Source of the DNA: Blattabacterium sp. (Cryptocercus punctulatus) str. Cpu
Lineage (GTDB): Bacteria; Bacteroidota; Bacteroidia; Flavobacteriales; Blattabacteriaceae
Reading direction: 5' to 3'
Assembly (NCBI RefSeq): GCF_000236405.1
Contig: NC_016621.1
Coordinates: 471,001 to 535,000, forward strand
DNA length: 64,000 bases
Both the position numbers and the translations under genes were made by a program. Shown here in pieces: positions 11,297 to 56,464 of this stretch (positions within the stretch are counted from its first letter, which is position 1; the number at the start of each line of letters is the position of its first letter). The notes under the pieces were generated by a model. The model saw only the letters and a program-made list of their open reading frames with translations, was not told where the DNA came from and did not search any database.

Positions 11297-11378
11297 TCAG
11301 TTTTTTAGTAACTAATTTTGAAAATAATCGTAATTATTAGATAGGGATATAGTTATTATTTTTTATATGAAATTTTCA

Positions 11379-12971
11379 TTAGTTTTCTATAAATGAATAG
11401 ATATTCATTTTAATAACACTTTTATTAATAAAATTGGATTTACATTTAGATAAATTGATTCCATGGTAATTATAAAAATATATTTTTTTAATATTTGATA
11501 ATCCAATTATTATTATTTGAAGTTTTAATTTTTCAAGAAAATAATTTTTATGTTTATCAATTTTTTCAAGTAATTTATTTTCTACTTTTCTAACTATAAA
11601 GGTTTCATGCAAGGTATTCAAAGCTTTTTTAAAATCTTTTTTTTGAATTATGGCTGATATATTTTTTTCCGTAGAACCTTGTGATATCGCTCTTACATGA
11701 ATTCTATTTTTTCCTAAAGAAGAAAATATTTTTCCACTGGTTACATGAATATTTTTTATAGTATCTCCTACTAGAGCAATGATACAAAAATCATATTCTA
11801 TTTTTAATGGATCGATATATTTTTGATATATTTCTTTAGAAAATTCCCTATTTATTACCCTTTTTGCTTTAAGGATATCCATTTCATGGATACCTGTAGT
11901 AATGAAATGTTCTGAAGAATTTTTGATTATGAAAATTACATTTATTTTTTCACGTGATAAAACTTCAAATAAACGTTTGGAATAACTTGATATACCTATC
12001 ATTCCACTAACTTTAAGAGTAAATAAAACTAAATTATGAATGCCAGAAATACCAGTAACTAGTTGACGTATTTTTTTTTTTTTACTAATATGAATTAAAG
12101 TTCCTGGATCTATTGGATAAAAGGTATTTTTAATTTGTATAGGAATATTTTTTTTCATAGCTGGTTGTATCGTTGGAGGATAAATGACTTTTGCTCCAAA
12201 ATGCGATAATTCCATTGCCTCTTCATAAGAAATTTCTTTTATAGGAAATGCTTGATGAACCATTTTTGGATTCGCTGTCATCATTCCACTTACATCAGTC
12301 CATATTTCAAGTAAACTCGCAGATATTGCAGAAGCTAAAATAGCTGCAGTATAATCAGATCCTCCTCTTCCAAGAGTAGTTGTTTGGTTTTTTAAATTTG
12401 ATCCTATGAAACCTGGTAAAACCACATATTCTGATTTTTCTTTACGAAAAAATTGAAGAATATGGTGATTACTTGTAATAAAATCTACTTTTGCACATCC
12501 AAATTTGGAGTCTGTAATAATTAACTCCCTACTATCTTTGAAAATTGCATTTAATCCGTATTTTTTTAGTTTTTTTGCAATAATAAAAGAAGAAAAAAGT
12601 TCACCAAAACTCATAATTTCATCTAAAGTACGTTTGGAAAGTTCTTTTACTTTAAAAATACCGTGACATAAACTTTCTAAATTATTGATATTTTTTTTTA
12701 TCCAACTAATTAAATGACTTTGATAGTAGATAGGAAATAACTCTCTGATAATATTAAAATGCCGAATTTCTATTTTTTCTATAATATTTTTATAAACATT
12801 ATTTCTTTCAGAAGCTAATTTACTACATTGTATTAATTGATCGGTGATATTTCCTAATGCAGATACCACGATAGCATATTTTCCTTTTGGTTTTTTTTCT
12901 AATAAAGAACAAATACGTTTTATGGAATCAGAATGAGCGACGGAACTTCCCCCAAATTTTAAAACTTGCAT
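11379..12971 (-). CDS. thrA: aspartate kinase, C-terminally truncated ThrA with a vestige of homoserine dehydrogenase
   Basis: Aspartokinase, first step of the aspartate family pathway. The N-terminus MQVLKFGGSSVAHSDSIKRI and segments GRGGSDYTAA, EIWTDVSGMMTANP and LSHFGAKVIYPPTIQPA show an intact kinase domain, followed by two ACT-like domains (SGMIGISSYSKRLFEVL; ALVGDTIKNIHVTSGKIF). This is the bifunctional ThrA architecture, normally around 810 aa, but it ends at 530. The last 49 residues (LKLQIIIIGLSN...YHGINL) resemble the part of homoserine dehydrogenase just after its Rossmann glycine motif, with that motif deleted and the catalytic part gone. No thrB or thrC follows. The kinase probably now serves lysine/diaminopimelate synthesis through dapB. 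A 13-base poly(A) tract (12071-12083) lies inside the gene. Confidence 0.9.
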   Translation of the reverse strand: MQVLKFGGSSVAHSDSIKRICSLLEKKPKGKYAIVVSALGNITDQLIQCSKLASERNNVYKNIIEKIEIRHFNIIRELFPIYYQSHLISWIKKNINNLESLCHGIFKVKELSKRTLDEIMSFGELFSSFIIAKKLKKYGLNAIFKDSRELIITDSKFGCAKVDFITSNHHILQFFRKEKSEYVVLPGFIGSNLKNQTTTLGRGGSDYTAAILASAISASLLEIWTDVSGMMTANPKMVHQAFPIKEISYEEAMELSHFGAKVIYPPTIQPAMKKNIPIQIKNTFYPIDPGTLIHISKKKKIRQLVTGISGIHNLVLFTLKVSGMIGISSYSKRLFEVLSREKINVIFIIKNSSEHFITTGIHEMDILKAKRVINREFSKEIYQKYIDPLKIEYDFCIIALVGDTIKNIHVTSGKIFSSLGKNRIHVRAISQGSTEKNISAIIQKKDFKKALNTLHETFIVRKVENKLLEKIDKHKNYFLEKLKLQIIIIGLSNIKKIYFYNYHGINLSKCKSNFINKSVIKMNIYSFIEN

Positions 12972-55759: not shown

Positions 55760-56464
55760 TTATATACCTAAAACTTCTTTCATAGAAAAAATACCCTTTT
55801 TATCTTTTATCCATTCTGCTGCAATAAGAGCCCCTGTAGCAAATCCTTCTCTATTATGAGCTTGATGTTTAATTTCTATATTTTCTATTTTAGATTGATA
55901 CAAAACTCTATGTATTCCTATTTCATTATCCAATCTTTTTGAAATAATTAATATTTGATTTTTTGTTTTTTTTTTATCTAAAATCCAGGTTTTTTTCATT
56001 TTATTATTAATAATATTTTTTGCTAAAACAAGAGCAGTACCACTAGGTCGATCCATTTTTTCTTTATGATGAATTTCTTCAATTTTTATTTCATAATTTA
56101 TAGAATATGGAAATAAAAATTTTGATAATTTATCATTAATTTCATAAAAAATATTCATTCCTATACTAAAATTGGAAGAATATAAAAAAGTTCCATTTTT
56201 TTTTTTACATATATCTTTAACAAGATGAAATTTTTCTAACCATCCTGTAGTTCCACACACTACAGGAATATTATTTTCTATACAAATCTTGATATTATTA
56301 AATGCTGAATCAGGACAACTAAATTCTACGGCTACATCTACATTTTTTAATGAAATATTACAAGGACTTTTATTAGAAAAAAAAGAAATTTGATGATTTC
56401 TAATTTTTGCTATTTTTTCTATAGATTTACCCATTTTTCCATATCCTATTATGGCTATATTCAT
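55760..56464 (-). CDS. dapB: 4-hydroxy-tetrahydrodipicolinate reductase
   Basis: Second committed step of lysine/diaminopimelate synthesis. The NAD(P) loop IIGYGKMGKSIE opens the protein and the catalytic region EIHHKEKMDRPSGTALVLA carries the His-Lys pair. HQAHNREGFATGALIAAEWI closes it. Length 234 aa is typical for Bacteroidota. It shows the lysine branch is active and explains retention of aspartate kinase at 12 kb. Flavobacterial neighbours parA and parB are not upstream here; 245 bases of AT-rich sequence separate it from tRNA-Leu. Confidence 0.95.
   Translation of the reverse strand: MNIAIIGYGKMGKSIEKIAKIRNHQISFFSNKSPCNISLKNVDVAVEFSCPDSAFNNIKICIENNIPVVCGTTGWLEKFHLVKDICKKKNGTFLYSSNFSIGMNIFYEINDKLSKFLFPYSINYEIKIEEIHHKEKMDRPSGTALVLAKNIINNKMKKTWILDKKKTKNQILIISKRLDNEIGIHRVLYQSKIENIEIKHQAHNREGFATGALIAAEWIKDKKGIFSMKEVLGI

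Follow-up and report, generated by a model that had tools for sequence, protein, structure and literature searches.

The thrA gene of Blattabacterium sp. (Cryptocercus punctulatus) str. Cpu (hereafter Cpu) very probably encodes a former bifunctional aspartokinase–homoserine dehydrogenase (HSD) that has become a single-function enzyme, its kinase kept for diaminopimelate (DAP) synthesis and its threonine-binding ACT region eroding. The 530-residue open reading frame lies on the reverse strand at 11379..12971 of the window, the whole 64,000-nucleotide stretch analyzed (G000:C2:471001-535000, G000 being the Cpu genome), and consists of an aspartokinase, an ACT region and an HSD fossil. It is the only match in a ThrA protein search of the Cpu genome, which totals 609,561 bp (C2, the larger of its two contigs, has 605,745 bp), is rated 99.97% complete and has Blattabacterium cuenoti strains as its named relatives. 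B. cuenoti Cpu of Cryptocercus punctulatus is listed at 610 kb in a review table (PMC4285135). The losses, the fossils, the order of decay and the constraint on the kinase are read from sequence comparisons, all made among related genomes; genus-wide counts refer to 49 Blattabacterium genomes. A tree of eight neighboring proteins from 13 genomes places Cpu and G001 as sisters, joined by G047 and then G043, with local support of 1.0 throughout.

The aspartokinase catalytic domain (residues 1-285; 12117..12971, reverse strand) is conserved by four measures: Pfam, invariant positions, dN/dS and motifs. Pfam identifies AA_kinase at residues 2-282 (E 3e-43) and ACT domains, and finds no HSD domain in the 530-residue protein. 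The aspartate kinase model TIGR00657 covers residues 3-459 with 364.6 bits, over its cut-off of 208.7. The best NCBIfam model is bifunctional ThrA (PRK09436), with an alignment that reaches residue 518 and a score of 505.1 bits, under the curated full-length cut-off of 726; the aspartokinase domain of that family is present, and its PF00742 domain and GxGxxG NADP loop are missing. Both motifs KFGGSS and TTTLGRGGSDYTA are kept, in line with the preliminary description of an intact kinase, and this conservation suggests that the remnant retains kinase activity. E. coli ThrA (aspartokinase I–homoserine dehydrogenase I) aligns with the kinase and ACT regions over their whole length, and the ACT region matches structure 6mx1. 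Unlike the E. coli enzyme, the Cpu protein lacks the catalytic part of HSD and has a changed threonine-site glutamine. The single-function aspartokinases of known structure (M. jannaschii 3c1m/3c20 and E. coli LysC, 2j0w) share the kinase and ACT layout and end near residue 457-461 of the Cpu protein, whereas the Cpu form appears to derive from a fused enzyme by loss of HSD and bears a 70-residue dead tail.

This tail belongs to an N-terminal HSD fossil on the reverse strand (about 11355..11594), longer than the 49-residue remnant first proposed. The homology begins near 11594, after an in-frame deletion of 13 codons at 11594/11595, between residues 459 and 460, and extends about nine codons beyond the stop. 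Two consecutive stop codons, TAA and TGA, lie within it (11376..11381, reverse strand), and beyond both the HSD frame still reads KFHIKNN, compared with KFNLRNS in relatives. The last 49 residues (11382-11528) align to the HSD part of G047 ThrA with 69% identity over 48 residues (62.0 bits, E 8e-17) and to that of G045 with 60% identity (50.4 bits), whereas the maximum for 500 shuffled tails is 28.5 bits. A longer stretch that includes the part before these residues is identical at 47 of 68 positions to G001 and at 44 of 67 to G047. Among four free-living Bacteroidota loci, matches are weak and below the shuffle maximum (L015, 25.8 bits; L004 of Aquimarina, 25.4; L007, 15.8), with none listed for L006. 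The glycine loop is gone, as had been described: the 13-codon deletion took out strand 1 together with the first glycine of the NADP loop. In Cpu the position of E. coli G472 is deleted and those of G474 and G477 hold R and E; G001 has R, G and E at the three. The glycine-to-glutamate change common to both genomes is thus older than their split. In one study, the G474D mutation in E. coli ThrA leaves no detectable HSD activity, with kinase kinetics and threonine sensitivity unchanged (PMC8426250).

The whole Cpu genome contains no match to PF00742, the HSD family, compared with matches in 47 of the 49 genomes of the genus; this search found no separate HSD elsewhere in Cpu. The HSD frame is intact in 46 genomes and truncated in one, G015, where a fragment with a stop remains. 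In G001 (L070:11528-13456) a frame of 643 codons runs through the kinase, the ACT region and a damaged HSD that lacks 20 internal codons, and then into the last codons of thrC (LNSEKIKNISMSNHYDYFQN). An assembly or sequencing error could in principle have put a false stop into an intact gene, as the sequence is AT-rich with long A/T runs, but the chance of this is negligible: most of HSD (>270 codons) is missing together with thrB and thrC, no HSD exists anywhere in so complete a genome, and the related decayed state of G001, with the shared glycine-to-glutamate change, refutes it.

In G045 the order thrA, thrB, thrC is intact and is followed by thyA, which faces them. Only 82 bp separate thrA and thyA in Cpu, and this gap holds nothing but the last ~13 codons of thrC and its stop (ISLSNNYDYFQN and stop; 11312..11353, reverse strand; tblastn E 0.006 within 1.8 kb), so thrB and thrC indeed do not follow. 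The DNA of this thrC fossil is near-identical to that of G001, and the downstream DNA is also shared with it. Across the genus thrB is whole in 41 of 49 genomes, broken in G047 and without a match in Cpu, G001, G008, G010, G015, G040 and G043. PF00291 (PALP), a family that includes threonine synthase, threonine deaminase, cysteine synthase and tryptophan synthase beta, has no match in Cpu; 48 of the 49 genomes match it, among the matches listed. Full-length metB-type genes (PF01053) occur in 43 of 49 genomes and in none of Cpu, G001, G015, G043 and G047; the four matches in Cpu are weak (best E 2e-5), and none is listed over the cut-off. A broken metB-type gene also lies in G016 (G016:C1:84826-85460), which retains thrB and HSD. 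Since HSD, thrB and PALP-fold genes are absent, Cpu would be unable to make threonine from aspartate, as proposed; the parallel proposal for methionine stands for the usual route, which is cut, as far as the HSD and metB-type steps surveyed show, by the absence of HSD and of a full-length metB-type gene.

These losses are associated across genomes. Of the 5 genomes that lack both a whole thrB and any metB-type gene, 3 have lost HSD or keep a truncated form, compared with 0 of the 44 others. The hypergeometric p of 5.4e-4 (own arithmetic) is weaker than it appears because Cpu and G001 share ancestry. G008, G010 and G040 lack thrB, yet keep metB-type genes and HSD. G047 (L069; G047:C1:504950-508360) has a whole thrA of 817 residues beside a thrB broken by frameshifts and stops and a thrC that has lost most of its middle, and its homoserine would have no obvious use. 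In EUPHYsp (G015, L002:5989-7818) the frame ends just past an intact glycine loop and pieces of HSD follow; thrB and thrC are gone, the ACT region is eroded and lysA is intact, and this loss of HSD is independent of that in Cpu. We propose that the homoserine branch dies first, when thrB, thrC and metB-type genes are lost or broken, and that selection on the HSD half would then end. Substitutions in the glycine loop, followed by deletions and stops, would remove HSD and leave the 70-residue translated tail.

A tail kept open for some purpose, for example to stabilize the kinase dimer, is improbable. Pairwise dN/dS by the NG86 method is about 1 or above in the tail: 0.96 for Cpu–G047 and 4.14 for Cpu–G001, with 0.70 for G001–G047. 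The value of 4.14 rests on two synonymous changes, and we do not claim positive selection from it. The proteins also differ in length, with 530 residues in Cpu and 642 in G001, and single-function kinases of known structure, E. coli LysC among them, do without a tail beyond residue 457-461. In favor of such a purpose, the G001 frame stays open for its full 643 codons across the wrecked HSD, and all visible indels in the Cpu and G001 tails are in frame; the latter count is no test, because broken frames would go unseen.

The preliminary description had assigned the kinase to lysine synthesis via dapB, and this purpose needs to be corrected. A lysA-type match (E ≤4.5e-44) is found in 46 of 49 genomes, the exceptions being Cpu, G001 and G043. 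The Cpu lysA (L089) is a pseudogene outside the window, at about 313154-314257 of G000:C2, between the same neighbors as intact lysA; G047 LysA aligns to it along 406 residues at 50% identity, and numerous stops and frame changes interrupt the alignment. The sole PF02784 match in the Cpu genome is an arginine-decarboxylase-like protein. Such a protein (SpeA) is found beside LysA in most other genomes, and G015, G023 and G030 are without this match. As lysA is a pseudogene, lysine would not be made in Cpu, and together with the nature of the sole PF02784 match this rules out lysine as the purpose of the kinase. The DAP branch itself is retained: dapB lies in the window (55760..56464, reverse strand; Pfam DapB_C, E 2e-34, and DapB_N), and Asd, DapA, DapF and MurE are found, like DapB, over curated cut-offs. 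The survey covered asd, dapA, dapB, dapF and murE. With lysA dead and these five genes kept, the likely purpose of the kinase is meso-diaminopimelate for the cell wall. Its product would still feed asd-dapA-dapB-...-dapF-murE, leading to meso-diaminopimelate and on to peptidoglycan.

The ACT regulatory region (residues 286-459; 11595..12116, reverse strand) had been described as intact, and this proved incorrect. Invariant positions were defined from 31 intact relatives (of at most 44 available), giving 159 in the kinase and 124 in the ACT region. Cpu has changes at 6/159 in the kinase versus 24/124 in the ACT region (Fisher p 2.6e-5), where 2 more positions are deleted. In leave-one-out controls (n=31) the ACT region has 0-6 changes and the kinase 0-13. 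The same imbalance is seen in EUPHYsp (7/159 in the kinase; 21/124 and 2 deleted in the ACT region) and G001 (4/159 and 23/124). In G043 (L075; G043:C1:235378-237009), which lacks thrB, a full-length metB-type gene and lysA, the HSD frame is open (820 residues) and the ACT region already eroded at 14/124, with 5/159 changes in the kinase. G047 has 3/159 changes in the kinase and 0/124 in the ACT region. Erosion is thus not immediate, since G047 combines broken thrB and thrC and the lack of a full-length metB-type gene with an intact HSD and ACT region.

The dN/dS values agree with this picture. For kinase and ACT region they are 0.24 and 0.68 (Cpu–G001), 0.29 and 0.75 (Cpu–G047) and 0.27 and 0.66 (G001–G047), and pairs with G043 give 0.12-0.18 and 0.15-0.20. 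Intact pairs give 0.08 and 0.06 (G047–G045), 0.01 and 0.06 (G045–G018), 0.03 and 0.04 (G031–G046) and 0.21 and 0.08 (G040–G010). The kinase values of Cpu are several times higher than those of three of the four control pairs, the fourth being G040–G010, and the kinase may itself be relaxing. They would fit a thrA that is on its way out altogether, with a kinase under relaxed selection that may no longer work, as would values of 0.40-0.47 for kinase and ACT region together in the Cpu, G001 and G047 pairs, compared with 0.06-0.17 for gyrA, prs, thyA and ureC (0.19-0.47 for aroB). We consider such a dying gene unlikely, given the few invariant kinase positions changed, the intact catalytic motifs, the absence of frameshifts and the retention of all five surveyed DAP-branch genes. 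On the preferred reading, a working kinase with an eroding control region, the threonine-binding ACT region would erode because its purpose is gone with the threonine branch, and the Cpu enzyme has probably lost its inhibition by threonine.

Two regulatory glutamines recognize threonine, according to work in Arabidopsis, and are conserved in ThrA, their numbers not being given in the available text (PMC8426250). From motifs and alignment these would correspond to E. coli Q351 and Q432. Codon 350 of Cpu (11922..11924, reverse strand) encodes Lys in place of the Gln found in E. coli ThrA (Q351) and 10 other aligned ThrA sequences; the second glutamine (Q432) is kept, so that only one of the two motifs retains its glutamine. 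Feedback-resistance sites presumably include G330, S352 and G433, on which our reading does not rest. G433R occurs as a plasmid allele only, as far as the available text of PMC7531971 goes. The industrial S345F site does not correspond to the Ser changed in the ITQSSSE motif, as position 345 is Asn in all aligned Blattabacterium.

Loss of the pathway as such is already known. Neef et al. (2011, GBE) reportedly described the pathway losses and the lysA pseudogene of the Cpu strain (BCpu). In the texts available, threonine auxotrophy of the Cryptocercus punctulatus symbiont (PMC6039017) and loss of several essential amino-acid pathways in BCpu (PMC9603385) are published, and our results agree with them on threonine. 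The texts examined say nothing of the ThrA remnant, the leftover of thrC, the sequence of decay steps or the ACT erosion, and searches for Blattabacterium aspartokinase or thrA and for endosymbiont aspartokinase regulation found nothing on ACT erosion. As far as these searches reach, the domain-level account is new detail, in that it maps the fossil, puts the losses in order and describes how the threonine-feedback domain erodes along with them. The fossil is well supported, but it is of an ordinary kind and lies in a reduced genome that had been described before; the one testable new point is that the threonine-feedback region has been lost repeatedly with the kinase spared.

Across related genomes a fused enzyme appears to be dismantled domain by domain, from the intact state, through dead thrB, thrC and metB-type genes with an intact HSD, to a mutated and partly deleted HSD and finally to none. 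Allosteric control appears to decay together with the pathway that it regulated, and the catalytic domain persists, likely for the cell wall instead of lysine. The state with kinase kept and ACT region eroded would have separate origins in the Cryptocercus clade, in EUPHYsp and, in part, in G043, and we tentatively suggest, as a speculative possibility, that loss of threonine feedback was selected beyond being tolerated. Imported threonine would otherwise shut off the only detected aspartokinase, and hence DAP for the cell wall. This raises the question of whether a symbiont has to give up feedback by an amino acid before it can import it. If true, these enzymes would be a natural, repeated counterpart of the industrial feedback-resistant thrA alleles.
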